From contig JAFUJU010000025.1 of the NCBI GenBank assembly GCA_017468055.1, forward strand, positions 1-64,000: a DNA stretch of 64,000 nt, given 5' to 3'. Below are positions 8,436 through 38,780 of the stretch, one piece after another. Numbering within the stretch: position 1 is the stretch's first letter; each line of letters starts with the position of its first letter. Both the position numbers and the translations under genes were made by a program. Source of the DNA: Elusimicrobiaceae bacterium. GTDB lineage: Bacteria; Elusimicrobiota; Elusimicrobia; Elusimicrobiales; Elusimicrobiaceae. The notes under the pieces are model-generated. The model was not told the origin of the DNA. It saw only the letters and a list, made by a program, of their open reading frames with translations, and made no database searches.

Positions 8436-8531
8436 ACTTTTTGCTAGAATAGGGGAAGATTCCACGTGCCTTCTTCTGTCAGCAAGGCACATAAAATGTT
8501 AGAATATACGCGTAGTCTAAGCGGAGAATTT

Positions 8532-9644
8532 ATGCCATATAATATCTTAGTCATTAATCCCGGTTCCACCTCTGACGATATCGGTTATTACCGTGGAGAT
8601 CAGGCCGTATTTGAAGTAACGGTGCGTTATTCCATCACTGATTTGGAACCCTATGAAGGCAAAAATGTAACCGAACAGCTACCCCTGCGCAGAAAACTAA
8701 TCTTAGACTATTTACTGGACCACAATGTCCCTTTAAAGGAAATTGATGCCGTTATCGGACGCGGCGGATTTATCCGTTCCGTGGAAGGTGGCGTATATGC
8801 CGTTAATGACCAAATGGTTTCTGACTTAGAGACCGGACGTTATGGCGGCATTCACCCCTGTAATTTGGGGGGTATTTTGGCCAAAGAAATCGCCCAATAT
8901 GCAGATTGCCCTTGCTTTATCGCCAATCCGGTAGTCATAGATGAAATGCAGCCTTTGGCCCGCTATAGCGGCATGCCGGAAAATCCGCGTTTATCCATTT
9001 TTCATGCTCTAAACCAAAAACGTGTAGCTCGTTTGATTTCAGAAGAAATGGGCCTGCGTTATGAAGAAGTAAACTGTATTGTTTGCCATGGCGGAGGAGG
9101 CGTATCCATTGGGGCACACAAGCACGGCAAAGTGATAGACGTCAGCAACGGGTATGAGGGGGACGGCCCCATGACTCCGCAGCGCAGTGGCTCTGTGCCG
9201 GGAGCTTGCTTGGCTGATATGTGCTACAGCGGCAAATACACCCGCAAAGACATTCACCTTAAAATGCGTGGCAAAGGCGGTTTAGTGGCCTATACCGGAA
9301 CCTCTGACGTAAAAGATTTAGAAGAATTTATTGCCCATGGCGAAAAACGCCCCGGCTCTTTGATTAATTGCACCCCGCAGAAAGCCAAAGAAGCCCTAGA
9401 TGCCATGATTTACCAAATCTCTAAGGAAATCGGCGCACAGGCGGTGGTGCTGGAAGGAAAAGTAGATTTTATTATTCTGACGGGCGGACTGATGTTTAGC
9501 AAATACATTCCGCAGGAAATAGAACGGCAGGTAGGCTGGATCGCCCCGATTCACATTTTCCCCGGAAGTGAAGAAAAAGACGCCCTGTGTGATGCGGCCC
9601 GCCGCGCACTGGAAAACCCCTCTATAATTAAACATTATTCTTAA
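8532..9644 (+). CDS. buk: Butyrate kinase
   Basis: About 370 residues of the acetate/butyrate kinase (ASKHA) family. Begins MPYNILVINPGSTSDDIGYY, where the family has VINPGSTSTK; later GRGGFIRSVEGGVYAVND, NCIVCHGGGGVSIGAH and ILTGGLMFSKY match butyrate kinase. It transfers phosphate from butyryl-phosphate (or a branched-chain acyl-phosphate) to ADP, giving ATP. The ATG after GCGGAGAATTT is preferred over an in-frame upstream start. TGCTAGAAT (about 8441-8449) and TGTTAGAAT (about 8499-8507) are possible promoters. Followed 11 bases later by ptb. Confidence 0.92.
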   Translation: MPYNILVINPGSTSDDIGYYRGDQAVFEVTVRYSITDLEPYEGKNVTEQLPLRRKLILDYLLDHNVPLKEIDAVIGRGGFIRSVEGGVYAVNDQMVSDLETGRYGGIHPCNLGGILAKEIAQYADCPCFIANPVVIDEMQPLARYSGMPENPRLSIFHALNQKRVARLISEEMGLRYEEVNCIVCHGGGGVSIGAHKHGKVIDVSNGYEGDGPMTPQRSGSVPGACLADMCYSGKYTRKDIHLKMRGKGGLVAYTGTSDVKDLEEFIAHGEKRPGSLINCTPQKAKEALDAMIYQISKEIGAQAVVLEGKVDFIILTGGLMFSKYIPQEIERQVGWIAPIHIFPGSEEKDALCDAARRALENPSIIKHYS

Positions 9645-9655
9645 GGAGTAAAAAA

Positions 9656-10573
9656 ATGAAATTCAATAGTTTTCAAGACCTCATCAACCAGGTCAAAGGC
9701 AAATCCAACCGTGTCGTAGTACCGGGTGCGAACAATGCCGAAGCGTTGGAAGCCATTAAAATGGCTGACGAAAACGGACTGATCTCCCACGGTATTTTGA
9801 TTGGCCCCATCGCCCAAGTCAAGGAAATGGTAAAAGCTGCCGGACTCAACGAAGATAAATTTGAATTTATTGATTGTGAAGATGTTCCCACCATGTGTAA
9901 ATTGGCCGTAGATCAAATCTTGGCCGGAAAAGGCGATTTCTTGATTAAAGGCTTGGTAGATACCAAATACTACATGAAAGCGATCTTGAACAAAGATGCC
10001 CATCTGGTACCGGAAGGAGCTTTGCTCTCTCACTTTGTTTTATACAGCACCCCCAGATATAATAAGCCTTTCGCTGTAACTGATTCTGCAGTGGTCATTG
10101 CTCCGACCTTGGAACAAAAAGCTAAAATCATTCAAAACGCCGTCAACACGATGCATAAATTGGGCTTGGATAACCCGAAAGTATCCTGCGTATGCCCCGT
10201 GGAAAAAGTGAATGAAAAAATCCCCTCCACCGTGGATGCGGCCGCCTTGGCACAAATGAATGCCGACGGTAAAATTACCGGCTGTGTAGTGGAAGGACCG
10301 TATGATTTATACATCTCTATGTCTGCTCAAAAAGCGGCCGAAAAAGGCATCACCGGCAAACAAGTAGCCGGCAATGCCGATATTTTAATGTTGCCGGATT
10401 TGGACGCCGCCAATCCGCTTTACAAAGCTTTGGCTTTCTTTGGCGAACAAATGGAAGCGGCTGCTATCTTGGTCGGGCCCAAAATTCCCGTCATCTTGCC
10501 GTCCCGCGCTGATGACCCGAAAGTAAAACTCAATGCCATTGCATTGTGCTCTTTCTTGAAAGACCAAAAATAA
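9656..10573 (+). CDS. ptb: Phosphate butyryltransferase
   Basis: 305 residues of the phosphotransacetylase/phosphotransbutyrylase family; AAKAAEKGI- and NADILMLPDLDAANPLYKAL-type motifs are characteristic (here SAQKAAEKGITGKQVAGNAD). It converts butyryl-CoA plus phosphate to butyryl-phosphate and CoA, the step before Buk. Strong AAGGAG site, same operon as buk. The pair gives substrate-level ATP. With lpdA nearby, the source of the acyl-CoA may be branched 2-oxo acids rather than butyrate synthesis, for which no genes lie in the window. Confidence 0.92.
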   Translation: MKFNSFQDLINQVKGKSNRVVVPGANNAEALEAIKMADENGLISHGILIGPIAQVKEMVKAAGLNEDKFEFIDCEDVPTMCKLAVDQILAGKGDFLIKGLVDTKYYMKAILNKDAHLVPEGALLSHFVLYSTPRYNKPFAVTDSAVVIAPTLEQKAKIIQNAVNTMHKLGLDNPKVSCVCPVEKVNEKIPSTVDAAALAQMNADGKITGCVVEGPYDLYISMSAQKAAEKGITGKQVAGNADILMLPDLDAANPLYKALAFFGEQMEAAAILVGPKIPVILPSRADDPKVKLNAIALCSFLKDQK

Positions 10574-24917: not shown

Positions 24918-25418
24918 TTAATTATCACTTCCGATTCCAATATCACTTCCGCTTCCAATACCGTTAAGATAACAATAAGCTCCATAAGATCCACTTCCTA
25001 TTCCTAAGCACGGAAGCATATTCATACAATCTCCGATAGGCCCGATACAATGAATGCGTCTGTCTCCATTAGAAATAGATATGTCATAAGCAAAACCTGC
25101 CATAGAATTTTTGCCAAATAACTTAAGGGGGCCACTTGGTAAATAAGACGAATTTAATGTCCAATTTTTAGGTTCTGTAAGTTCTATATCTAACTGATCC
25201 AAACTAGCAGCATATTCGTTATTTGCCAGATAATACACATCTTGCGCGTCCCAGTATGCTTTAGCAATCGTAAAAACTTCTGCACTACGCGCTTTACGCA
25301 CGGTTTTAGTATATTGCGGCAAAGCTACCGAAGACAAGATACCGATGATAAGCACTACTACCAATAATTCAATCAGCGTAAAACCGCCGTTACGGCCCTT
25401 AGAAATATTTTTTTTCAT
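24918..25418 (-). CDS. Type IV pilin-like protein (long leader)
   Basis: 166 residues. The leader is longer than in the 13.5 kb copy (MKKNISKGRNGG) before [17 protein letters not shown] and [19 protein letters not shown]. The C-terminal pattern is IHCIGPIGDCMNMLPC, then a Gly/Ser-rich stretch with YC, related to the pilins at 43.6 and 63.8 kb. The last 15 residues are a GIGSGSD-type repeat. The ATG after AAAGAGGTTGAT is preferred over one 21 bases upstream. Convergent with rnpB. Confidence 0.9.
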   Translation of the reverse strand: MKKNISKGRNGGFTLIELLVVVLIIGILSSVALPQYTKTVRKARSAEVFTIAKAYWDAQDVYYLANNEYAASLDQLDIELTEPKNWTLNSSYLPSGPLKLFGKNSMAGFAYDISISNGDRRIHCIGPIGDCMNMLPCLGIGSGSYGAYCYLNGIGSGSDIGIGSDN

Positions 25419-25454
25419 ATCAACCTCTTTTTGGTCCAATTTTTACTACGAAAA

Positions 25455-25591: not shown

Positions 25592-27121
25592 CTAAATTAC
25601 TTTCTTTTCTTGCAGCATCTCTTTGACGGTTTTAAATACATCATCTACCGTAATCAAGCGCATACATTTAAAATGCCCTTTCGGACATTTCTTACCGCCG
25701 TGCAGCGCACAGGGGCGGCAATCTAAGCCTTTCACTTCAATCACACGACTGTCAGATCCGTACGGGAAGAAGCCCAGCTCACGGGTGGTAGGACCAAATA
25801 TACCCAGAGTCGGCACACCAAAGGCCGTGGCAATGTGCATCGGGCCGGAATCATTGGTGATGAAAAGTTTAAAATGTCCCATCAAGGCCATCAAATCAGA
25901 CAAGCTGGTCTTGCCACACAAACTGGCACAATGGCCATTGGAAAGCTGGCAAATCTTTTCACCCAGATCTGCATCGCTTCTTCCGCCGACGATTACCGCC
26001 TGCAGTTTCAGTTCTGTCTGAATCCGACTGATCAGCTCCACATAATTTTCAGCCGGCCAGCATTTCGTCGCCCAAGCAGACCCCGGATGAATCCCGATCA
26101 GGGTTTTTCCTTCCAGATTAAAGTCTTTCATCAGGCGCGCCACATTTTCTTCGGCGCTGGGGGCATAGCGCATATTCAATTTTTCGGCTTTGAAGTTTTC
26201 TTTTACAATACCATGTAACAAAGATAAGTTGCGCTCCACATCATGCACCATCCAGTTAAACGGAACGGTTTTGGTGTACAAAAACCACCCTTCACTGGAA
26301 GTAAACCCGATACGTATGGGCACCCCGCTGAGCCAAGCAATTAATGCACTGCGGAAACTGCGGTGCGGCACGAGCAAAATATCCACTCCGGCTTTTTTAA
26401 TGGCTTGGGCCGTTTTCCACACACCGGCAATTTTATTCCAACCTTTTTTATCGTTTAAAATAATTTCGTCCACTTCTTTCATCGGGCGGAAAATATCGTC
26501 CGTTTGCGGGCGGGTAATGACCAAAATTTTAGCATCGGGGAACAGCTTAGCAGTTTTTTGCACGAGCGGAGTTGTCAGAACGCTGTCTCCGATAAAAGAA
26601 GTTTGGAAAATGGCAATTTTATTAATTTTTTTGCCGTCCAAATTTGCATTTTTATACGCCCAATCGCTCAGTTCCGGTTTTTTGTGCACTATCGGCACGT
26701 CCCATTGTTTCAAGACTTCCAAATACCGCTCCAAGGTATGTTTTTCCAACACTGGAGAATTCTTTTTAAAACGCACATACATGCGGCGAGCGACGGGATT
26801 TTTGCAATAACGCAATTTATTGGGAATATGACTAAACAGGCCGATTAAAATGCTTTTTAAATTGGCATGCAAATCTAAGAAATGGGTAAAATGACCGGCG
26901 CGCACTTGGCGGATATTTCCCCAAAGGTTTTTCTTAGCCACCATAATTTCATCAATATCGGGGTGACCGGCCAATACTTGGGCAAACTGAGGTTTGACAA
27001 GCAGTGTAATATGGCTGTTAGGCCATTTGGCTTTCAGGTTCTTGTACACCGGAGAGGACAACACAATATCCCCTAAGGAGGACAGACGAACCACTAATAT
27101 TTTAGGTTGTTTTTCGTTCAT
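25592..27121 (-). CDS. Heptosyltransferase (GT9) fused to an extra N-terminal GT9 half
   Basis: 509 residues, against about 350 for one GT9 enzyme. Residues 1-165 look like the N-terminal Rossmann half of a heptosyltransferase (KILVVRLSSLGDIVLSSPVYKNL). A complete second enzyme follows from about 168 (IAIFQTSFIGDSVLTTPLVQ), with the donor-site half GIHPGSAWATKCWP, FITNDSGPMHIATAFGVPTLGIFGP and a cysteine-rich end (CRPCALHGGKKCPKGHFKCM). Probably adds heptose to the lipid A-Kdo core. Overlaps waaA by 20 bases. Confidence 0.85.
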   Translation of the reverse strand: MNEKQPKILVVRLSSLGDIVLSSPVYKNLKAKWPNSHITLLVKPQFAQVLAGHPDIDEIMVAKKNLWGNIRQVRAGHFTHFLDLHANLKSILIGLFSHIPNKLRYCKNPVARRMYVRFKKNSPVLEKHTLERYLEVLKQWDVPIVHKKPELSDWAYKNANLDGKKINKIAIFQTSFIGDSVLTTPLVQKTAKLFPDAKILVITRPQTDDIFRPMKEVDEIILNDKKGWNKIAGVWKTAQAIKKAGVDILLVPHRSFRSALIAWLSGVPIRIGFTSSEGWFLYTKTVPFNWMVHDVERNLSLLHGIVKENFKAEKLNMRYAPSAEENVARLMKDFNLEGKTLIGIHPGSAWATKCWPAENYVELISRIQTELKLQAVIVGGRSDADLGEKICQLSNGHCASLCGKTSLSDLMALMGHFKLFITNDSGPMHIATAFGVPTLGIFGPTTRELGFFPYGSDSRVIEVKGLDCRPCALHGGKKCPKGHFKCMRLITVDDVFKTVKEMLQEKKVI

Positions 27122-28382
27122 AATCTTTTACAGCTCCCATAATGTTTTGGGTGGCTCCTTTAAAACTCAGAGCCGTTTGCCGCGCTTTGGCGGCCATGTT
27201 TTCCAGCCCGGCCGAATCCTTACACAAACGCAGTACCGTGGCTTTCAAATTGGTTGCATCTACTAATACCCCACCGCCGGAAGCAAGCAAAGCATGGGCC
27301 GTGTCCGGCGTATTATAAAAACTCTTTCCAAATAAAACTGTTTTGCCCAAAATGGCCGGCTCCAGTAAATTATGCGCCCCACGCGGAGCAATACTTCCGC
27401 CCACAAAAGACAAAGCAGCACAAGCATACAAAGATTGCAGAAAGCCCATTGTATCGGCACACAAAAGGACCGTATTTTTAGGAAATTTCTTTTCACTGAG
27501 TAAGGCAAAAGGCAATTTTTGATGTTGCAAATTCGCTTTAATTTCTTCTTTTCTTTCCAGATGACGGGGCGCAAAAATAACTTTAATGCCGGCATCTGCC
27601 CAAACGGGAGCCGCTTTCAAAATCAGTTCTTCTTCCACCGGATGTGTACTTCCGCAAACCAGAATAAGATTATCCTGCCAACCCAATTTTTTTATCAAAG
27701 CGTTCACTTCTTTTAATTTGGCGGGACGGTCATTGAGTGTGTCGTATTTTACGTTCCCGCAGACCGCAATATTTTCCCTGGCCAGCCCCAAGCTGGCATA
27801 ACGTTTGGCGGCATCTTCATCCTGCATGGCGCCCAAAGCAATCTGCTTAAACAGCATATTAAAAAGCGGTTTTACCCAAAGATAGGCCCGCGTACTCTTT
27901 TGAGAAATACGGGCATTGACCAACATCACAGGCACCCCCGCCTTTTGCGCGGCATAAAGCATATTGGGCCATATTTCCCGCTCCACCACAAACAAGCGGT
28001 GAGGGGCGGCCACGTGTACAAAACGGCGGCTAAACGGATAAAAATCCAGCGGGGCCAATAAGGCTTTTTTAATGTCGGCATTTTTGGCAGCCTCGGCACG
28101 GCCTGCCACTGTGCTGGTGGTGACAATCACTTCTTTTTGATAAAAGGATTTAAGTTGCTTGATGAGTGTTTGGACAGATTTCACTTCTCCCACACTGGCA
28201 CAATGGATCCATAAAGCCCCCTGTGGAACTTCGCCTTGTTTCTCCAAAGCAAAACGCTCTTGCAGTTCTTGCCACAGGGTCTTAAGTACACGTCTGCGTG
28301 CCGAAAACACAAACCCCAGCAACACACCCAGTGCGGCAAACGGAAAAGCCAAGTTGGTTAAAAGCAATAAAAATTTGCCCAT
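27102..28382 (-). CDS. waaA: 3-deoxy-D-manno-octulosonic acid transferase
   Basis: 426 residues. N-terminal membrane anchor, then a GT30 domain with WIHCASVGEVKSV (acceptor site), VEREIWPNML, PVMLVNARIS, VCGNVKYD and the C-terminal GGSIAPRGAHNLLEPAILGK. Transfers Kdo to lipid A precursors at the inner membrane. TATAAT (28390-28395) ends seven bases before the ATG and no ribosome binding site is visible, so it may also have its own leaderless start inside the operon. Confidence 0.93.
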   Translation of the reverse strand: MGKFLLLLTNLAFPFAALGVLLGFVFSARRRVLKTLWQELQERFALEKQGEVPQGALWIHCASVGEVKSVQTLIKQLKSFYQKEVIVTTSTVAGRAEAAKNADIKKALLAPLDFYPFSRRFVHVAAPHRLFVVEREIWPNMLYAAQKAGVPVMLVNARISQKSTRAYLWVKPLFNMLFKQIALGAMQDEDAAKRYASLGLARENIAVCGNVKYDTLNDRPAKLKEVNALIKKLGWQDNLILVCGSTHPVEEELILKAAPVWADAGIKVIFAPRHLERKEEIKANLQHQKLPFALLSEKKFPKNTVLLCADTMGFLQSLYACAALSFVGGSIAPRGAHNLLEPAILGKTVLFGKSFYNTPDTAHALLASGGGVLVDATNLKATVLRLCKDSAGLENMAAKARQTALSFKGATQNIMGAVKDYERKTT

Positions 28383-28427: not shown

Positions 28428-29174
28428 CTATATTTCACGGGCCAAAGTATATGCCATCACTTTTTTGGCTCCCGCTTTTTTTAAGGCTTCGGCACAACCT
28501 TCCAACGTAGCCCCCGTAGTGGCCACATCATCTATTAATAAAATAATTTTTCCTTTCACCTCTTTTGGCAACACACACTCAAAAGCACCGCTCATATTTT
28601 TCAGTCTCCCTTCCCGTCCGAAACGGGTTTGGCTGGGTGTATTTCTTACCCTGCGCAACAACTGCGTGTTGACGGGTAAATTTCTTTTTTCAGCCAGCGC
28701 CACTGCCAAAAGCTCCGCTTGATTGTAACCGCGTTTTCTTAATTTTTTACGATGCAACGGAACCGGCACTAAGATTTGGCTTTCTGCCAATTCCGGATAA
28801 ATGGCCCAATAGCGGGCCATAAGTGTTGCCAAGAAATTAGCCAAATAAGATTGGTCCGCGTATTTAAAAGCATGGACTAAAGACCTTATCTGCGGACCGA
28901 AAACAACAGAAGAGCGAATAATTTTACATTTAAAAATTTTTCCTTTTGTACCGCGGCATTGGTAACAATGTGCTCCGCCATCCGGCAGAGGTTTTCCGCA
29001 ACGTTGGCAATATAAAGGCCCAACGTCCTTAATGGCCTTCAAACAAGAAGTGCACAAAGGTTCTGTTGTCTCCGGTGATAAATCACGCCGGCAGCTGTAG
29101 CAAGTATTTGGGAAAAATACATGCCATAATATTTTTTTGAGTTTGGAAAAAAAATTAGAATTGAACCGTAACAT
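28428..29174 (-). CDS. comF: ComF-family phosphoribosyltransferase-like protein
   Basis: 248 residues. N-terminal zinc ribbon (CYSCRRDL, CTSC, CQRCGKPL, CYQC) and a C-terminal PRTase domain with the PRPP loop IILLIDDVATTGATL. Named after a Bacillus competence protein; widely found in transformable and other bacteria. Its first 20 bases overlap the end of the SprA-like gene. Possible link to DNA uptake through type IV pili, given the many pilins here, is an inference. Confidence 0.88.
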   Translation of the reverse strand: MLRFNSNFFSKLKKILWHVFFPNTCYSCRRDLSPETTEPLCTSCLKAIKDVGPLYCQRCGKPLPDGGAHCYQCRGTKGKIFKCKIIRSSVVFGPQIRSLVHAFKYADQSYLANFLATLMARYWAIYPELAESQILVPVPLHRKKLRKRGYNQAELLAVALAEKRNLPVNTQLLRRVRNTPSQTRFGREGRLKNMSGAFECVLPKEVKGKIILLIDDVATTGATLEGCAEALKKAGAKKVMAYTLAREI

Positions 29175-32100
29175 TGGCTGCCAAATTATATGCCATATAG
29201 TCTTCCGTGGCTACATACGCATGGTTAAGCCACGTTACCCCGCCCGCCACATTTAAGCGCAAGTTTTGGGAGAGTTCATAATCCAAAGAAGAAATAATGT
29301 CCAACTTATCGTAATTATCTTTTACTTCTACCGGAGATTCCTTTTGTGTATAAGACAATGTCGTATTCCAAATCACACGGTTGGTGGCATTGTACATACG
29401 GTTGATAAAAGGCAGTTTTACACCGCGTGGCAAGTTAAAGTCCAAACGGATATTCAAACTGGGAGTAAATTCCGTACTGCTTTGGCTCAGCTGCCCGCGT
29501 ACCAGCCGTTTTTCATATTTCCCATATAAAACCTTAGGGGTAAAACGCCAGTTACCCAGATAAAAAGAAGTTTGTGCAGAGAAATCCTCTCCGTTTATTT
29601 CTTCCAAGCTTTCTCCCGCCTTCAAATCCTCTTTCCAACTGTCCTGCTTGTCATACATTAACACCGTATCAAAAAAGTTAAAAAGCAAGAAGCGCAAATC
29701 TCCGCCATACTTGCGTTCCATTTTTTCATCACTGCCAAGCGTACGGTTTTCCACTTTGCTATAGCGCAGTTTTAAGTTAGTGGAGTTCACCCAACGCCCT
29801 CCGTAAAAGAATTTTTCCAAATCGGAAATGGAAATCACCGCATCAGGCAAGGTCATACTCTTGGTTTCATACTCGGTGCCTGTTTGGTTGTTTTGCTGGG
29901 TACTGTGGGTAAAGTTGTTCAAAAAGGATATCGTTTTTAAGGGGGCCAATTGTCCGCCCAAATCATAGGCAGCTAGCGGCGTCCAACGTTGAGAAGAAGT
30001 AATAGTATCGCGCAAAATCAAACTTTGCCGACTGGAATATTTACCGGTACCGGACAGGGAAGAGCGGATCCACAATTCCTTTTTGGCATCAAAGTCTTCA
30101 TCTACGTAATTCCAAGAGTCCGCGTCCTGCATACGATAACTGGAAGAGATAACAAAGTTTTTAAACAGTTTGCTCTTGGGCATGATTTCATTGCCGTTTA
30201 ATGTCAAAGAAATACCGCCGTCAGCATTACGGTTCAAGCTTTTTAGTTCTCCCGCTTCAAAGGTTGTTTCATCGGTCTTTCCTTTGTTAAATACCTTGGC
30301 TACCAAATTATTAGTTTCTGTAGTAGCAATACTATAACTAAGGGAAGGAGCTAACCATTTGGCAATGCGCCACGTACTGTTAAAGCCCGCATTTTGATTC
30401 ATTCCTTTGGGATAGTGGCGGTGATAAATGTCAGCAGAATCGTTATGTTGAGTGCGCTCTTCTTTACTTTGCGTCAAACTATAAGAAGGGGTAAAGTTAA
30501 AATTTTTGTGTGGCTCATAGGTCATTTTCAAGTTCATGCGCTGGGTTTGCTCTTGGGTATTATAGTTACTCTCCGAATGCATTTCTTGCGCGTAATCAAT
30601 CTTGGTATCCGTAAAAGAATAGCCGGCATTGATATTTTTGAAGGCACCTTTTGTCTCATGGGTTAAGGTAACAGCATAGGTTTGGGCCTTGTCTTTACGT
30701 TTCATCAAATCATAATCTACCTGATCCATGGTGTACTGCAAACCGATTTTCGGTAAATTGTTTTTGATAAAATCACCGCGCACCAAAGCCTGTTGCCGCT
30801 CCACAGATCCTTTATCCAACGTGCTAATCGTGTTATAATCAGTCGTGTCGGCAATGTTGGGGGTAACGGTGGTACTGCGATTAAACGTAGCCTCCATGGG
30901 GAAATGTTTAAATTTATCTACTTTCAAGAAATATTCTTCTTCCGTTATTTCTTGGTCTTTAGACACGGTTAACGGTGTTTCAAAATCTCCGTCCATATAT
31001 TTATATTTAGCCCCGGCACTCCCCCAACCGTTCAGGCGCACGGCCCCGTCTACCTTGTAGGCAGTTCCTTCGGTGGTAATAGCTTCTGCCAAGTGAATCA
31101 CATTAAGCCACACGGACCCGCTTCCTCCCCCGTTATATGTTTCTTCGCCGGTTCCTTCGTCCATTTGTGAAGTGGCAGAAATACCGGCCATAATCATACT
31201 GACCTTTTTGAAATTCATCACCCCGCCGCTTTGACGCACATTACGTACTTCCACACCATAATCAGCCGGAGAAGCATTTTCAAATGCATCGGTAATACCG
31301 TCTCCGTTTTTATCCACCATTTTTAAGGTAATCAGGCGCCAAGTACCTTTGCCTTGCCCCAAAGGAACAATAATTTTGTCATAGTTTTGGTCCGTACCTA
31401 CTTTTAAGAAAAATTCCGCACCGGCATTTTCTTCGTTATTATGCAGTAAGAAACGGAACTCTTTGTGTTGGGTAAAGTCCATAGTTTTGAAGTTACGGTT
31501 GGCAAACAAGGTATCCCTATCCCCGACGGTAATATCTTTGTAAGTCAGGTTTAAAGATTGGTCCATGACGTTAGCGCTGTCACTTTGTTTTTTGTAATTA
31601 GCCACTGAGCCATACAACTCATTAAACACTTGTAAACCGTCTCCGGTGTTAGGGCTGAAAATGGGCACATAGTTGGTATTATCTACATTATTGATACCGG
31701 AAACAGCAAATTTGTTAGGGTCGGTGTCTTCTTGCGGATTCCAGGCCGTACCTGCCAAAGCCACATTAGCGATTTTAACCGTACCTTTCAGTTTACCCTC
31801 CGCTTTCATTTCATTGGTTAATTTCAGTGTAATACGCAAGTGACGCACCGCATTCCAACGACTTTTATCATCCACGGTAAGCGGCGTGCTGAATGTTCTC
31901 CAACCGTCATAAGAAAGAGCATTATCCGGCATACCGTTAATTGCCACTCCTCCGTAACCGAAATGCCCGCCAACGCTTCCGTCTTCTTCATCATATTTTC
32001 CGTTGTGGTTTAGATCTTGACTGTCAATACGCCCGTTGGGCTGCCGTTCGGGATTGTAGATATTTCTGGTAAAAGGGTCAAAACGTTGCAATGTTTTATC

Positions 32101-34557
32101 CGGGTTGGTAAACCACCACCCGCGGTCTTCATTGGGGGATAAAGTTTCCAGACAGTTCACATCTTCGGTTTTGGGAGAAGAAGTATCCGGATTACAAGCC
32201 GTGTACATACCGTAAGAATTGGAAACCAAACCGGATGGAACATCTATCGGGTTGGCCGAATCAGAATATTCACTGATATTCCCAAAAGTAACGTCCAATT
32301 GCGGGGCCGCCACACCGCTTCCTTCTCCCAAAGCGGTTAATTCAAAGGATGTTTTATCCGACAAGTCCACCCCACTATCACTCAACGGGTAAACAATGGA
32401 AATTTCATCATGGTCCGTAAAGCTGCCCATATTAGTCGTTTGAGGCTTGGTAAAATCATAATTAATGACTAATACCTGTTGTTTTTCATTATACGTACCG
32501 ATTGCATTGGGATTAATTTCCAGCATGGGAAGTTCCTGCGTGTCCCAAGAAACGGAGTCTAAGAAAGAGGGCTTTCCATTGGGGTTGGCGGCGATGTTCC
32601 AATCATAAAATACACGGCTTCCGCCCACTTGGACATTGGCATCGTTCATGCTGTCTATCATTGCGTAGCCATATACGTTTTCATTCTTTTTACTCTTGGC
32701 TACTTCTGCACCAAAATCCACCGCCAAATTGTTGGTTACTTGGATATCTTTGGCGTTAATATCTGCTCCGTAGACGAGCAAATCTTTGGCATAGTTGCCC
32801 ACTTGCGGTACTGTTTGGGGTTTATCCCACCCTTCTTTTAATACTGTCGTTCCTAATTTCACTTTGTCAAACAGTTTATAGTCCAAACGGCCCCCGATGA
32901 GGGAGTTATTGGAGTCAGATCCGTTGGTGGTATCATAGGATATGTCAATAACGGCATTTTCAGTAATCATATCCCCTTTATAAAAAGTAATAAAGCCGGA
33001 GGTATAGTCAATATAATAGTCATTATTGCGCTGTAACTGACGGCCGTTAAGTTTTACAGATTCGGACTCCACCACCATGTCTGCTTCCACAAAATAGGTT
33101 TTGACGGTGGAGGTATATTCCACCTTAAAGGTGCGGTTTTTGGAGGAAACAGGCGTGGTATTATACAGCCCGCGGTCATCAGTCATACGGCTTTGCAGTT
33201 CAAAAATACCTCTGTCAAAATCCATATCTATGGTAGTGGGATAAATTTGTTTGGGGTTGGCCCTGCTGCCTACTTCCTGACCGTTGGCATCCAACAAGGT
33301 AAGAATAAAGTTTCCTTTCCCGTTATCGCGCGTAATCTGTTGTGCGCCCACGGAATAAAAAGTTTTCATTTCCAGCTGATACCCTGCTTCCGTATTTAGC
33401 GCAATCGGTTTTTCGTTTTCGGTTTTAATGATATAGGGTTCGTTTTGATTGGGGCTAAGCCATTTACCTGCCGCATTTTGATAGTTCACCGCTATCACAC
33501 TGGCGGCGGTTTGAGCTTTGGCAAAGCGAATGATACCACGGCTATAATCTACCGTATAATCTACACCGCGCTGTAAAAGCTTAAATTTGGCCGGATAAGT
33601 AACCGTCGGCTCTTTATAGTCGCGCGCCGTTAGGGATATAGGCACATAATCGCCGTCTGTCGTGTTGGTGTACAAATACACTTCTTCGGTTCCGGGGGAA
33701 ATATTGCCCATATCGCTTCCCCAAGCGGAGTCCACACCCACGTTTGTACCAAAAGTTAAATCATAGTACGTGCGCCGGATGTAATCAATATCCGCAATAG
33801 ATACAATTTCAAATACACTGCTTCCTACGAATTGCTTTTGTTTGCTGGAACCCTTGGTTTGGCTGCCGATGATGCGCAAATCCAAATCTTTGTGTTGCAA
33901 ATGCACTTTTGCACCGAAAAGCTGCTTTTGATAGGCGATAAATTCCGTCTGAGGCAAAGACAAATTAATATCCCCGAACTCCGCTAACTGCACTAATTCG
34001 CCTGTTTTACCGCGGTAGGCCACTGACAATGTTTTTTCTTCTTCACGCTTATCATCATAGTCAATATCCACAAAAATGCGGTCCAAAATTTTACCTTGCA
34101 TTTTAATTTGCATTTCCTGTTGCATTTCAAAATTGCGGATATTTCTTTCTTCTATATCATTGTTGGCATCTTCCATGTAACGTTTGGCGTCCATTTTCAC
34201 CCCTACGACGTAGCGGCCGGTTAACGCAATATTCGTGCCGTAAATAGGCAAGGAAAGGGTGGGGTTTAACAGGGTTAAGTCCGGTATCGGCTCCGGCTCT
34301 TTGTCCAAGGCATAATCCCCTTCCACCGCTGTTACTGCCTGACGCCAAAATTCATTGGTGTATTTAAGCAGTTGGGCATCATCGGGGGCTTCTTTGATAA
34401 TCAGTTCCTCTTCCGCTTGGGCTTTGCGCTCGTCTTCAAAAATGTCATAGCGGTCCCGATCCACCAACGTGTAAGGCAGCGTTTCGGCCTGCAAATACGA
34501 GCCGAAAACCAGATGGGGGATTAAAAAAAGACATAACAGCAACCGTGCGGTTTTCAT
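29155..34557 (-). CDS. Giant outer-membrane protein, SprA-like
   Basis: 1800 residues with a signal peptide (cleavage near residue 24). Residues about 90-230 (PIYGTNIALTGRY, MQGKILDRIFVDIDYD, LVQLAEFGDINLSLP, QLFGAKVHLQHKDLDLRIIGSQ) match in order the features I recall for the N-terminal domain of SprA, the type 9 secretion translocon of Bacteroidota. Many beta-strand repeats follow, and the end is aromatic (AANVTVQF), as in barrel proteins. At 1800 residues it is shorter than SprA (about 2400). The product is likely a large outer-membrane channel. First gene of an operon with comF, waaA and the heptosyltransferase. Confidence 0.7.
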   Translation of the reverse strand: MKTARLLLCLFLIPHLVFGSYLQAETLPYTLVDRDRYDIFEDERKAQAEEELIIKEAPDDAQLLKYTNEFWRQAVTAVEGDYALDKEPEPIPDLTLLNPTLSLPIYGTNIALTGRYVVGVKMDAKRYMEDANNDIEERNIRNFEMQQEMQIKMQGKILDRIFVDIDYDDKREEEKTLSVAYRGKTGELVQLAEFGDINLSLPQTEFIAYQKQLFGAKVHLQHKDLDLRIIGSQTKGSSKQKQFVGSSVFEIVSIADIDYIRRTYYDLTFGTNVGVDSAWGSDMGNISPGTEEVYLYTNTTDGDYVPISLTARDYKEPTVTYPAKFKLLQRGVDYTVDYSRGIIRFAKAQTAASVIAVNYQNAAGKWLSPNQNEPYIIKTENEKPIALNTEAGYQLEMKTFYSVGAQQITRDNGKGNFILTLLDANGQEVGSRANPKQIYPTTIDMDFDRGIFELQSRMTDDRGLYNTTPVSSKNRTFKVEYTSTVKTYFVEADMVVESESVKLNGRQLQRNNDYYIDYTSGFITFYKGDMITENAVIDISYDTTNGSDSNNSLIGGRLDYKLFDKVKLGTTVLKEGWDKPQTVPQVGNYAKDLLVYGADINAKDIQVTNNLAVDFGAEVAKSKKNENVYGYAMIDSMNDANVQVGGSRVFYDWNIAANPNGKPSFLDSVSWDTQELPMLEINPNAIGTYNEKQQVLVINYDFTKPQTTNMGSFTDHDEISIVYPLSDSGVDLSDKTSFELTALGEGSGVAAPQLDVTFGNISEYSDSANPIDVPSGLVSNSYGMYTACNPDTSSPKTEDVNCLETLSPNEDRGWWFTNPDKTLQRFDPFTRNIYNPERQPNGRIDSQDLNHNGKYDEEDGSVGGHFGYGGVAINGMPDNALSYDGWRTFSTPLTVDDKSRWNAVRHLRITLKLTNEMKAEGKLKGTVKIANVALAGTAWNPQEDTDPNKFAVSGINNVDNTNYVPIFSPNTGDGLQVFNELYGSVANYKKQSDSANVMDQSLNLTYKDITVGDRDTLFANRNFKTMDFTQHKEFRFLLHNNEENAGAEFFLKVGTDQNYDKIIVPLGQGKGTWRLITLKMVDKNGDGITDAFENASPADYGVEVRNVRQSGGVMNFKKVSMIMAGISATSQMDEGTGEETYNGGGSGSVWLNVIHLAEAITTEGTAYKVDGAVRLNGWGSAGAKYKYMDGDFETPLTVSKDQEITEEEYFLKVDKFKHFPMEATFNRSTTVTPNIADTTDYNTISTLDKGSVERQQALVRGDFIKNNLPKIGLQYTMDQVDYDLMKRKDKAQTYAVTLTHETKGAFKNINAGYSFTDTKIDYAQEMHSESNYNTQEQTQRMNLKMTYEPHKNFNFTPSYSLTQSKEERTQHNDSADIYHRHYPKGMNQNAGFNSTWRIAKWLAPSLSYSIATTETNNLVAKVFNKGKTDETTFEAGELKSLNRNADGGISLTLNGNEIMPKSKLFKNFVISSSYRMQDADSWNYVDEDFDAKKELWIRSSLSGTGKYSSRQSLILRDTITSSQRWTPLAAYDLGGQLAPLKTISFLNNFTHSTQQNNQTGTEYETKSMTLPDAVISISDLEKFFYGGRWVNSTNLKLRYSKVENRTLGSDEKMERKYGGDLRFLLFNFFDTVLMYDKQDSWKEDLKAGESLEEINGEDFSAQTSFYLGNWRFTPKVLYGKYEKRLVRGQLSQSSTEFTPSLNIRLDFNLPRGVKLPFINRMYNATNRVIWNTTLSYTQKESPVEVKDNYDKLDIISSLDYELSQNLRLNVAGGVTWLNHAYVATEDYMAYNLAANVTVQF

Positions 34558-34709
34558 AAGACGGTAAAAAACCTCATTCTTTCATTGTATAATATTTGCC
34601 TGCTTGTCCACGGTAATATGGGGTTATTTTTCAAATGCTTAAAAAAGAGTAGTTCCGTTTGATATTTTTGCCCGCCCTCAGGCTGATATTTGTTAGAATA
34701 AAACTATCT

Positions 34710-35813
34710 ATGAATTTTGTACGTTCCGGTATTTTTACGCGTTACATTGCCAAAACACTGCTGACCTTTTTTATCGGGGTGGTGGGGATTTTGATGTTTG
34801 TCATTTTCATGAACCATTTTATCCGCATTATGGAAATGGCCATGAACTATGGCACCAGTTGGTGGTGGATTGCATCTTCTTTACTTAGCGTATTGCCCAA
34901 TGTTTTCACGATGGCCGCACCGATGGCGTTTCAAATTGCAGTCCTCTTAACGCTAACCAGCATGAGCGAACAAGGGGAGCTGATTGCGTTGCGGGCGGCC
35001 GGATTTTCCTTTAAAGAAATTGTCAAACCGATGCTTTTTTGTGCCATTGGCTTGGTGGTGGTGCTTTTTTTCTCTTCCAACTGGCTGACACCGCGCAGTT
35101 ACCAACGTATGCTAAACTTGCGTGAAGAAGCCAGACAAAAAATTACTAAAGTAACCCTAGAGCCCAAAACGTTTTTGAATTTAGGCGAATGGGACTTGTA
35201 CTTGGAAGATTTAGACGAAGTAACTGATTTGGCCAAGCAAATTCATTTAATCCGCAAAAACGACGATGATGCGTTAAGCACAAAAGTAAATGCCAGCTCC
35301 GGAAAGGTTATTTTGACAGATAAAGCCATCGGCCTGCAGCTGCAAAACGGTCAAATGCAACGCATTGATTCCAAAGACCCCACCGCCATTATTGCCGCCA
35401 ATTTTGATAATTACACCATGCATATTTCCCTCACCAGAGACCATAAACGCAGCCAGCGCGTAGCGGAGCGAACCACAACCAAAATTTTCCGCATGATCCG
35501 CCAAGGACGCATGACCCCGGAGGAAAAAGCAGAATACCGCACCGAGGTCAGCACCCGCAATGTAATGGCTTTTGCACCGATTATTCTGCTATTTGTCAGC
35601 TGTCCGCTGGGGTTTTCTTTAGGAAAGCGTTCCAACAAAGGGTGGGGCATGCTTTTTAGTGTAATCATTATTTTTGTATTTTACTTACTGATGACCCTGG
35701 GGCTAAGCTTGGGGGAAAAGTATGCATGGCTGTCTTATCCGGGGCCGTGGTTGCCGATGTTTATCGGAGCGGGGGCCGCGTGGTATCTATGGAAAAAGAG
35801 GTTGAACATTTAA
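34710..35813 (+). CDS. lptF: LPS export permease LptF
   Basis: About 367 residues of the YjgP/YjgQ family: two membrane segments near the N-terminus, a periplasmic beta-jellyroll (about 130-265) and more membrane segments at the end. Together with LptG and an LptB ATPase (not in the window) it extracts LPS from the inner membrane. The ATG at 34710 (MNFVRSGIFTRYIAKTLL) is preferred to an upstream TTG. TAGAAT lies ten bases before it and there is no clear ribosome binding site. Assignment as F rather than G follows gene order. Confidence 0.88.
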   Translation: MNFVRSGIFTRYIAKTLLTFFIGVVGILMFVIFMNHFIRIMEMAMNYGTSWWWIASSLLSVLPNVFTMAAPMAFQIAVLLTLTSMSEQGELIALRAAGFSFKEIVKPMLFCAIGLVVVLFFSSNWLTPRSYQRMLNLREEARQKITKVTLEPKTFLNLGEWDLYLEDLDEVTDLAKQIHLIRKNDDDALSTKVNASSGKVILTDKAIGLQLQNGQMQRIDSKDPTAIIAANFDNYTMHISLTRDHKRSQRVAERTTTKIFRMIRQGRMTPEEKAEYRTEVSTRNVMAFAPIILLFVSCPLGFSLGKRSNKGWGMLFSVIIIFVFYLLMTLGLSLGEKYAWLSYPGPWLPMFIGAGAAWYLWKKRLNI

Positions 35814-36898
35814 TGAACCGCTTGTCTTTTTACATTTCCAAAAAATTCTGGGGCCCTTTCTTTTTTGCATTAGGGGTATTTGCCGCTTTGGTTGTTTTGG
35901 GCGATACTTTTGAAAAATTAAAGACCCTCAGCAACGGTCATTCCACGTTGGGGGCTATTTTAACTTATTCCATGCTCACGTTTCCCAGTTGGCTGACCAC
36001 CGTCATGCCGGTGGCGTGTTTGCTGGGGGCTATTTCCGTCGTATCGGAAATGGTAGCTAACGGAGAATGGACAGCCCGTGTGGCCAGCGGTTTTGCCCCG
36101 CGCCAACTTTTTAAACCGGTGTTAGGCTGTATTTTATTAGTGGCCGCCATCACCATGCTGATACAAGAGTTTGTCGTTCCCCCCTTCAACATCAAGGCAG
36201 AAACCGTATATTACACCCGAATTAAATATCGGGAAAATTTTAACTTGAATACCGAAGCCGATGTAGCCATGAAAATAGGCAATAACCAAATGCTTTATGC
36301 CAAACTGGTAGATTTGGAAAAGGGAGAAATGAAAGACGTCTCTTTGGACACGTATGATGCCAACTGGAACATTGCTTCTCAAGTGGTAGCCAAACGTATG
36401 GTGTGGAATGAGGAAAAAGGGGAATGGATCTTTGAAGAAGGAACAAAAAGAACATTCGTAGATGCCTTAGATACGAAAGATAAGCCCTTTACGCAAGAAA
36501 TTTCTTCCTTTCAAATCCCGCCGCAAGAAATGTCTGTGAGTAAAACGGAAAACAAACTTTTAAGCATTCGGGATTTAACCAAACGCATCAACTTTTTTCA
36601 AAGAATGGGCCTCGCCCATTATTCTGCTGAAACCGAACGCCAAGCCAAATTGGCTGCCCCTTTTGTGACGCTGATCATGTGTCTTTTAGGTATGCCGTTT
36701 GCTATCAGCATGCGCAGAAAAAGCAAGATCCTAAATATTATCGCCTCCATGGTCATTGCCTTTACTTTTTGGTGGCTCATTAGCATGATTACCTCTATCG
36801 GAGAAAACGGCTACATTAATCCGTTTCTGGCAGGGTGGGGGCCGGTAATTGTGTTTAGTATTGTGGTTTTCTTTGAATATAAGTGGCTGAAATTATAA
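35813..36898 (+). CDS. lptG: LPS export permease LptG
   Basis: About 361 residues, same fold as LptF (MNRLSFYISKKFWGPFFFALG, periplasmic domain, C-terminal ISMRRKSKIL and membrane helices). Its ATG overlaps the lptF stop (TAATG), with GAGG about nine bases upstream, so the two are translationally coupled. Longer in-frame starts inside lptF are unlikely. Confidence 0.9.
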   Translation: MNRLSFYISKKFWGPFFFALGVFAALVVLGDTFEKLKTLSNGHSTLGAILTYSMLTFPSWLTTVMPVACLLGAISVVSEMVANGEWTARVASGFAPRQLFKPVLGCILLVAAITMLIQEFVVPPFNIKAETVYYTRIKYRENFNLNTEADVAMKIGNNQMLYAKLVDLEKGEMKDVSLDTYDANWNIASQVVAKRMVWNEEKGEWIFEEGTKRTFVDALDTKDKPFTQEISSFQIPPQEMSVSKTENKLLSIRDLTKRINFFQRMGLAHYSAETERQAKLAAPFVTLIMCLLGMPFAISMRRKSKILNIIASMVIAFTFWWLISMITSIGENGYINPFLAGWGPVIVFSIVVFFEYKWLKL

Positions 36899-36916: not shown

Positions 36917-36949
36917 AAAAACACCCCGCCAAACCGGCGGGGTGTTTTT
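36917..36949. terminator. Bidirectional terminator between lptG and pilin
   Basis: Perfect 14-bp stem (AAAAACACCCCGCC with its complement). Confidence 0.9.
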
Positions 36950-37388
36950 ATTTCGGATCATATACTTTATAGTATTTAGTATTTTCTCTAATTTCTGAAG
37001 GTTCTTTTTCACCAACAGATTTACAAACATATTGTGCCAAATCACTACTATTAGAAGCGACACACCACAAAGAAACCCTTCCCGTATTATATTCTCTAAC
37101 CTCAAAATATATTCCTTCTATTTTCGGCCTATAAGCCCATACATAACCACTCCAAACCCATTTATCACTTAGTCCTATATCCAAATTATCTATATCTGTG
37201 GTATTCGCTTCTCCGCTTTCCAACTGGTATCTCTGTATGGCATCAACCAAAGCTCTACCTTGTATAACACCTTCCATAGCACGGCTTTTTGCCAGCGCTT
37301 TTTGATAATTAGGTAAAGCCACTGCCGACAATATACCAATGATTAACACGACTACTAACACTTCTATCAAAGTAAAACCTCTTTTCAT
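36948..37388 (-). CDS. Type IV pilin-like protein (short leader)
   Basis: 146 residues. MKRG leader, [17 protein letters not shown] (Val replaces Leu at mature position 6), then AVALPNYQKALAKSRAMEG. Variable part rich in Trp and Tyr (SDKWVWSGYVWAYR). C-terminal pattern C-x(10)-CKSV (WCVASNSSDLAQYVCKSVGE). AAAAGGAG site. Convergent with lptG. Confidence 0.9.
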   Translation of the reverse strand: MKRGFTLIEVLVVVLIIGILSAVALPNYQKALAKSRAMEGVIQGRALVDAIQRYQLESGEANTTDIDNLDIGLSDKWVWSGYVWAYRPKIEGIYFEVREYNTGRVSLWCVASNSSDLAQYVCKSVGEKEPSEIRENTKYYKVYDPK

Positions 37389-37574: not shown

Positions 37575-38780
37575 TTAGCTTAAAGAGGCTTGCACTTGCG
37601 CAGTAACTACCGCCTGTTGCTCTACTTCCAGCAATACATCTCTTTCAGCCGTTCCTTCCTTTTGGCTTTCCAAAGCAAAGGAGGCATACTCCAACATAGC
37701 CGCCATAAGGTTTTCTTTGGCGGATACATTTTCATATTGATTCAAAATATACTCTTTATCTTGAACGGGCAACCACAACCCCATTTCCGGCGTTTGAGAT
37801 ACAGCACTCAACATGTTTTGGCGTGCTTGCATAGATTGCGCAATCATGCTGGCAGAGCCCGCATTATCTTCATTCATGGCACAATCCAACCGGTCTACCA
37901 ATATTTCTAAACAACCCAATCCACCCACAACGGCCACAGAAAACATGCCTTTGTAAAAGAAACCGCGAAATCTCAGAATACTTTTCATTTTCTGACTTTT
38001 CGCCATGATTTTTTCGGCGCTGTTTTTCCACTCAATTTTAGCTCTGCGGGCTTGGTCAATTTTATACGAGGACGGGCGCATACCGCCGGCACGTTCAATA
38101 CCTATTTCCGCCGTTCTCATTCTATAGGTATCATTGGCTACCAACATTTTGCGTGCTTCTTCATTGAGTACCGGATCAAACATATTGTTGTTAAATTTTA
38201 TTTCCAGCTGTCTGCGCATGGAAGACATACCAAACGTTCTTTCCATATTACTTACCAAGCCTTGATGAGAAAGAAACGGTTTGTTTCCTACAACAAAACG
38301 AACATTTTCATGCGCATAGTGGCGGGTAAATTCTTCCAAGGATACCCAACGGTTATTCCAAAAAACCATACCTTTTTCAATAATCTTACCACCGGCCGCT
38401 ACCCCATGTACGGGAGCCATCGGCACTTCCACAATCGTGCGGGGTTTGAAAGCAGCTCTACCGCCGTCGGCTACGTATCTTACTTCATTTTCAGGCACTA
38501 CATAAGAACCATGGCCCACATAATAGGGTTCTCCGGCACCTAAACGCTGAAAACGATCCACATTAAATTCACTGGCTCTTATTTCTTCCACCTTTACGGT
38601 AGGCAACATTTCTTTGGCAATTTTGTCATAATTGGCCATATATTCCTGACGGGCCGCTTGCGTTACTTCGTTAATCATATCCCGACTCATCACTTTCGGC
38701 AATTCATCTGCCATAGCAAAAGACGGGACTAATAATGCGGCCGCACAGAACAAGCTAACTGCATTCTTCATTCTTTGCAT
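37575..38780 (-). CDS. Secreted protein of unknown function
   Basis: 401 residues that I do not recognise. Signal peptide MQRMKNAVSLFCAAALLVPSFAMA, so exported. The body is charged and probably helical, with a YVGHGSYVVPENEVRYV segment, a VDRLDCAMNEDN region and one hydrophobic stretch at about 285-305 (FSVAVVGGLGCLEIL) that could span the membrane. AGGAGAAAAAAGAAC precedes the ATG. Monocistronic, between a pilin promoter and a GGDEF/EAL gene; no context clue to its role. Confidence 0.65.
   Translation of the reverse strand: MQRMKNAVSLFCAAALLVPSFAMADELPKVMSRDMINEVTQAARQEYMANYDKIAKEMLPTVKVEEIRASEFNVDRFQRLGAGEPYYVGHGSYVVPENEVRYVADGGRAAFKPRTIVEVPMAPVHGVAAGGKIIEKGMVFWNNRWVSLEEFTRHYAHENVRFVVGNKPFLSHQGLVSNMERTFGMSSMRRQLEIKFNNNMFDPVLNEEARKMLVANDTYRMRTAEIGIERAGGMRPSSYKIDQARRAKIEWKNSAEKIMAKSQKMKSILRFRGFFYKGMFSVAVVGGLGCLEILVDRLDCAMNEDNAGSASMIAQSMQARQNMLSAVSQTPEMGLWLPVQDKEYILNQYENVSAKENLMAAMLEYASFALESQKEGTAERDVLLEVEQQAVVTAQVQASLS

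Follow-up and report, generated by a model that had tools for sequence, protein, structure and literature searches.

The reverse strand of a 64,000-nucleotide stretch of DNA from an Elusimicrobiaceae bacterium (phylum Elusimicrobiota; GenBank assembly GCA_017468055.1, contig JAFUJU010000025.1, positions 1 to 64,000), hereafter called the window, contains an open reading frame (ORF) coding for a giant protein that resembles SprA, the outer-membrane translocon of the type 9 secretion system (T9SS), and raises the question of whether a translocon of this type exists outside the Bacteroidota and the FCB group. Earlier publications restrict the T9SS to the Bacteroidota or to FCB phyla (PMC4793230, PMC11205867, PMC11285876): of 1,528 diderm genomes surveyed, only those of Bacteroidetes had it (PMC4793230), and according to a paper from 2024 its genes are lacking in non-FCB phyla (PMC11285876). 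No report of a T9SS in Elusimicrobiota was found in the open-access literature. The analysis described here indicates that the gene most probably encodes the SprA-family outer-membrane pore of a non-FCB translocon of the T9SS type, serving cargo proteins which have a C-terminal sorting domain (CTD) and are carried by PorV.

Sequence similarity to SprA

The SprA-like gene (29155..34557, minus strand) is an intact ORF with an ATG start and corresponds to 1800 predicted amino acids, as determined from the ORF call and its translation. It is a genuine, conserved gene, and the ORF is beyond chance because it has matches in 162 of 198 Elusimicrobiota genomes, among which are 131 of the 141 good-quality ones and members of 57 of the 64 genera, and because lptF/lptG adjoin it in 84 of the 100 fetched loci with room for them (82 divergent, 2 co-directional). 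The NCBIfam model for SprA/Sov, TIGR04189, matched the predicted protein in four stretches (E=4.2e-38, 130 bits), the best of which covers residues 71-261 (33775..34347, minus strand). The N-terminal likeness to SprA noted in the original prediction was thus confirmed, and it extends along the middle of the protein. A profile made from 26 aligned phylum members, i.e. the window protein and 25 of 32 loci (L031-L062) chosen by the analyst, had SprA as its sole match among PDB sequences (E=1.6e-37), with three significant stretches collinear with SprA residues 158-267, 700-779 and 1147-1570. The match to SprA was obtained with the profile only; the same PDB search with the window protein alone gave nothing meaningful. 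The protein also has weak matches to phage tail tube (3.2e-5) and distal tail models, and CBM_11 matches 6 of the 26 aligned members.

Predicted structure

The structure was predicted as two overlapping AlphaFold models, of residues 24-1190 and 650-1800, the whole barrel not being modelled at once. Each model was based on 68 sequences, after 6 of 80 loci with frames shorter than 1500 amino acids and 7 of 75 rows with more than 93 % identity had been dropped. Mean pLDDT was 78.7 for the N-terminal and 82.9 for the C-terminal model. In Foldseek searches four SprA chains occupied ranks 1-4 with both halves, at E=6.3e-42 for the N-terminal half (next match 4.6e-5) and E=7.1e-30 for the C-terminal half (next match 3.0e-6). 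The original prediction had set a fold like that of SprA against one unlike it, and it is the former that was obtained. With VIA-align, SprA was also ranked first for the N-terminal half (Z 16.7), 937 residues being aligned onto SprA 132-1546 with a root-mean-square deviation (rmsd) of 11.9, and the C-terminal half aligned with SprA over 876 residues (Z 14.1, rmsd 12.5). Since both profile and fold match SprA, the kinship is well supported, and the 1800 amino acid protein is a genuine SprA homologue.

The protein starts with a hydrophobic, signal-peptide-like segment of about 24 residues (34486..34557, minus strand), recognized by eye from the translation and not with a predictor. The middle cap-like region, approximately residues 650-1119 (31201..32610, minus strand), was delimited from the strand pattern and overlaps the best-scoring part of the profile match, in which profile positions 813-1164 align with SprA 1147-1570. 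The C-terminal region (29158..31203, minus strand) has 28 predicted strands of at least 9 residues and ends in a phenylalanine which is invariant in 26 of 26 and 68 of 68 aligned members. A terminal phenylalanine is expected of outer-membrane barrel proteins. Over the two overlapping models, the strands outside the cap with a minimum length of 9-11 residues numbered 35-38, which is compatible with a barrel of 36 strands and is no proof of it. In the VIA-align search with the N-terminal half, part of the cap region resembled carbohydrate-binding modules in fold.

PorV-family carriers and sorting domains in the phylum

Two of the partners expected from the original prediction, PorV-family proteins and CTDs, are present in Elusimicrobiota, and together with the SprA profile and fold they uphold its suggestion of a related outer-membrane secretion system in this phylum. 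PorV-family proteins (NF033709) were matched in 59 of 60 genomes, 38 of them over the cut-off, with up to about 30 per genome. Type A CTDs (TIGR04183) were matched in 42 of the same 60 genomes (41 over the cut-off) and in 122 of all 198 (120 over the cut-off), with up to 67 per genome. CTD-like matches were also seen in giant open frames of 17,343, 14,455 and 13,077 amino acids (G037:C6:90200-90490, G004:C3:110811-111176 and G030:C6:189653-189958, respectively).

Carrier and cargo genes are ordered with respect to each other. The 150 top-scoring places listed for CTDs were compared with the 150 top-scoring ones listed for PorV. Of these CTDs, 30 were followed on the same strand by a PorV-family gene at a distance of up to 1.5 kb, compared with 0.36 expected, and 28 of these 30 pairs were within 412 nt; no PorV-family gene was found upstream of a CTD or on the opposite strand. 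In the ten best fetched PorV loci the upstream frame ended in a CTD-like C-terminus in five; of the other five, one was masked, one had a protein without a CTD-like end, one had a short unrelated frame and two had no frame in range.

SprA and CTDs also co-occur. Both were found in 115 of the 198 genomes, SprA alone in 47, CTDs alone in 7 and neither in 29 (p=1.7e-8, or p=1.3e-17 when the genus of the window was left out, both values ignoring relatedness). The genus of the window, in which the CTD has diverged, accounts for 38 of the 47 genomes with SprA alone.

Evidence against a T9SS-type translocon and the question of the motor

A number of results weigh against the assignment. The 130 bits of the window protein are below the curated TIGR04189 cut-off of 200 bits, so that the equivalog rule is not satisfied, and 0 of 198 phylum genomes reached this cut-off. 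The Pfam model SprA_N, with which the original prediction proposed to check the likeness, gave no match in the window protein, which had no Pfam match at all, or in its genome, although 3 of the 26 aligned phylum members did match (best E=1.2e-7). The pTM values of the two structure models, neither of which holds the whole barrel, were low (0.53 for residues 24-1190 and 0.50 for residues 650-1800), and in the VIA-align search with the C-terminal half SprA did no better than TonB-dependent receptors and porins, which reached Z 16.5 over shorter lengths. The predominance of these single-barrel proteins in that list was not read as a relationship. CTDs were present in 7 of 36 SprA-negative genomes, and CTD and FlgD-Ig domains are similar, the CTD model also matching in the Deinobacterium control. 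The PorU sortase model NF033707 had no match over the cut-off in the 60 genomes, and its listed matches all begin at position 861 or later, in the C-terminal part of the model. GldM and GldN were each found in 0 of 60 genomes at E<=0.001, in searches in which no positive control matched. For the window's own genus, finally, 38 genomes were listed, and TIGR04183 detected a CTD in none of them.

The search for motor and ring components was confined to the GldM and GldN models. Since GldM and GldN were not found, a complete standard T9SS was not demonstrated, and this part of the partner search of the original prediction came out negative. It is possible, if somewhat doubtful, that a full standard T9SS with the GldL/GldM motor and the GldK/GldN ring is present and has diverged too far for the models, in which case the function of the pore would be the same. 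SprA itself is below its family cut-off in this phylum, similar divergence is conceivable in the other components, and the missing positive control also leaves room for such a system. The models for PorV and CTD, however, come from the same library as those for GldM and GldN and pass their cut-offs in 38 and 41, respectively, of the very genomes in which GldM and GldN gave no match. In the best reading, the Elusimicrobiota translocon would draw its energy from a source that these searches did not recognise.

The CTD-PorV pair in the genome and genus of the window

The paucity of detected cargo in the gut Elusimicrobiaceae, to which the window belongs, could mean that the SprA-like protein of this lineage survives as a remnant or serves some other purpose, with almost no cargo left. 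This is unlikely, although it agrees with the TIGR04183 result for the genus and with the presence of a single PorV-family gene in the window's genome, apart from one resembling FadL. The PorV-family model matched at two places in that genome, C35 and C43 (L164). The match at C35 was set aside as a PorV, as FadL-type transporter models score better there. The protein at C43 scores 84 bits, slightly below the cut-off of 90 bits, and a PDB search with it returned nothing.

A gene truncated by the contig end, with a length of 1011 codons or more, ends 15 nt before the one at C43. It codes for FlgD-Ig repeats followed by a CTD-like end carrying an insertion. This long insertion, a feature of the CTD in the window's genus, brings the TIGR04183 score down to E=0.04. 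A probe made from the CTD end of the window's genome detected the diverged CTD protein in 12 of 16 genomes of the genus and in 9 of 9 genomes of the same order, where the matches were weaker. All 10 genus loci that were retrieved, that of the window's genome included, have a PorV-family gene immediately behind the CTD gene. Complete versions of the protein in three congeners have 1615, 1794 and 1759 amino acids and signal-peptide-like starts. These findings argue against a remnant, as does the SprA-like gene itself, which is intact and, with matches in 38 listed genomes, conserved within the genus. The cargo repertoire of the genus seems small, with one long cargo-PorV pair found in the window's genome. 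This pair (L164 1406-12771, C43) stands beside genes which we take to be those of a Tad pilus (TadA/TadB/TadC, CpaB-like and secretin-like).

Genomic context and descent of the SprA-like gene

The genes around the SprA-like gene were identified from family-model matches. On the minus strand, a comF-family phosphoribosyltransferase gene (28428..29174) overlaps the SprA-like gene by 20 nt and is followed by waaA, encoding the Kdo transferase (27102..28382), and a lipopolysaccharide (LPS) heptosyltransferase gene (25592..27121). The overlap of comF with the SprA-like gene described in the original prediction is therefore correct, whereas that of comF with waaA is not, the two being separated by a gap of 45 nt; waaA instead overlaps the heptosyltransferase gene by 20 nt. 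Divergent from the SprA-like gene on the plus strand are genes for LPS export permeases of the lptF type (34704..35813) and the lptG type (35726..36898), the first ATG of the latter overlapping lptF, so that its true start may be later.

Besides lptF/lptG, comF is a conserved neighbour: of 103 loci with enough sequence to tell, 89 have it next to the SprA-like gene. The adjacency of waaA is local to the close relatives of the window, only 14 of 112 loci having waaA near by. The 112 loci, on which the neighbour counts for lptF/lptG and comF are also based, hold some contigs fetched twice (e.g. L058 and L070) and are not all independent. Co-production with the LPS core by way of waaA, as proposed originally, thus does not hold beyond these close relatives.

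In the least probable alternative, the protein would act together with LptF/LptG and the LPS core genes as a channel for LPS, lipids or polysaccharides, for example in place of LptD. This would fit the adjoining lptF/lptG, the waaA and heptosyltransferase genes downstream in the window and an initial Pfam LptD search with matches in just 3 of 60 genomes, but it is very unlikely, because a separate LptD exists phylum-wide, even where SprA was not found. A profile made from two LptDs of the phylum matched in 59 of the 60 genomes, among them that of the window (C86:84501-86456, E=3.1e-35) and all four without a SprA match (G008, G017, G048 and G050); replacement of an absent LptD was therefore rejected. 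The local occurrence of waaA and the Foldseek result, which gives the fold of SprA rather than of LptD, are further points against the channel put forward as an alternative in the original prediction. LptD is evidently easily called missing in this phylum when the Pfam model is used in place of a phylum-specific profile.

The descent of the SprA-like gene has been mainly vertical, because its tree is congruent with the taxonomy: in a midpoint-rooted tree of the 26 sequences, the five families with at least two members and the window's class formed clades with support of 0.99-1.0. The 80 relatives in named GTDB contigs are from Elusimicrobiota wherever the title names a group, some titles giving only 'uncultured bacterium' or 'bacterium'. 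All but one of the SprA-negative genomes listed by name are from a single family, many being small or fragmented.

The region is flanked by two genes resembling those for type IV pilins (window 24918-25439 and 36948-37388). A protein of 401 amino acids with a signal-peptide-like start is encoded at window 37575-38780 and had no NCBIfam match at 1e-8. Genes for butyrate kinase and phosphate butyryltransferase at window 8466-10573 fit a fermentative organism.

Discussion

The protein from the window has SprA/Sov of Flavobacterium johnsoniae and Porphyromonas gingivalis (PDB 6h3i, 6h3j, 8gl6 and 8gl8; TIGR04189) as its top match in both profile and Foldseek searches, and shares with it the order of the conserved stretches, a giant barrel with a middle cap-like region and the co-occurrence of PorV-family and CTD proteins. 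It differs in being shorter (1800 compared with 2403 amino acids), in an identity of 11-18 % in the structure alignments, in a score below the family cut-off, in the location of its gene between lptF/lptG and comF, and in a host outside the Bacteroidota. The PorV-family proteins resemble the PorV/PorQ carriers in passing the NF033709 cut-off in most of the 60 genomes and in often following a CTD gene; several phylum members, however, carry many copies, as if there were one carrier per cargo. The sorting domains have the motif order of the type A CTD (TIGR04183, PF18962), i.e. YPNPF, a hydrophobic strand with G, W..N..G, VA.GVY and a Lys-rich last strand, and, in the examples inspected, run up to the stop codon, differing in the window's genus by the long insertion. 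The core is thus clearly of SprA type, and what is new is the phylum, the absence of a detected motor and the expanded set of cargo-paired PorV proteins.

In F. johnsoniae, according to the published description, PorV attaches to SprA at the lateral opening, its loops bind the CTD inside the pore, and PorV is pulled off together with the cargo at the expense of energy (PMC10994853). By analogy, the SprA-like protein of Elusimicrobiota would be a very large beta-barrel with a cap, providing an exit route from the periplasm for Sec-exported proteins. These cargo proteins would bear a type A CTD at the C-terminus. The carrier, a PorV-family barrel whose gene often comes right behind that of its cargo, would attach laterally to the pore, hold the cargo by its CTD and take it outside.

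More tentatively, these components may represent an ancestral Elusimicrobiota type 9 pathway, consisting of a SprA pore, many cargo-paired PorV proteins and CTD cargo, and working without the GldL/GldM rotary motor; another envelope energiser could take its place, or the motor could be a later addition in the line of the Bacteroidota. Such a pathway is possible, if somewhat doubtful.

The SprA-PorV-CTD set found across Elusimicrobiota contradicts the view that the T9SS is restricted to the FCB group and moves the origin or the spread of the translocon outside that group. A comparable case is that of the Poribacteria, which were reported to possess TIGR04183 domains and to lack Por structural genes (PMC3909097); a relaxed search for SprA and PorV may solve this puzzle likewise. 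The Elusimicrobiota would be a natural test of the requirement for the rotary motor, and the translocon would give this little-cultured phylum a surface route for its many large secreted proteins.

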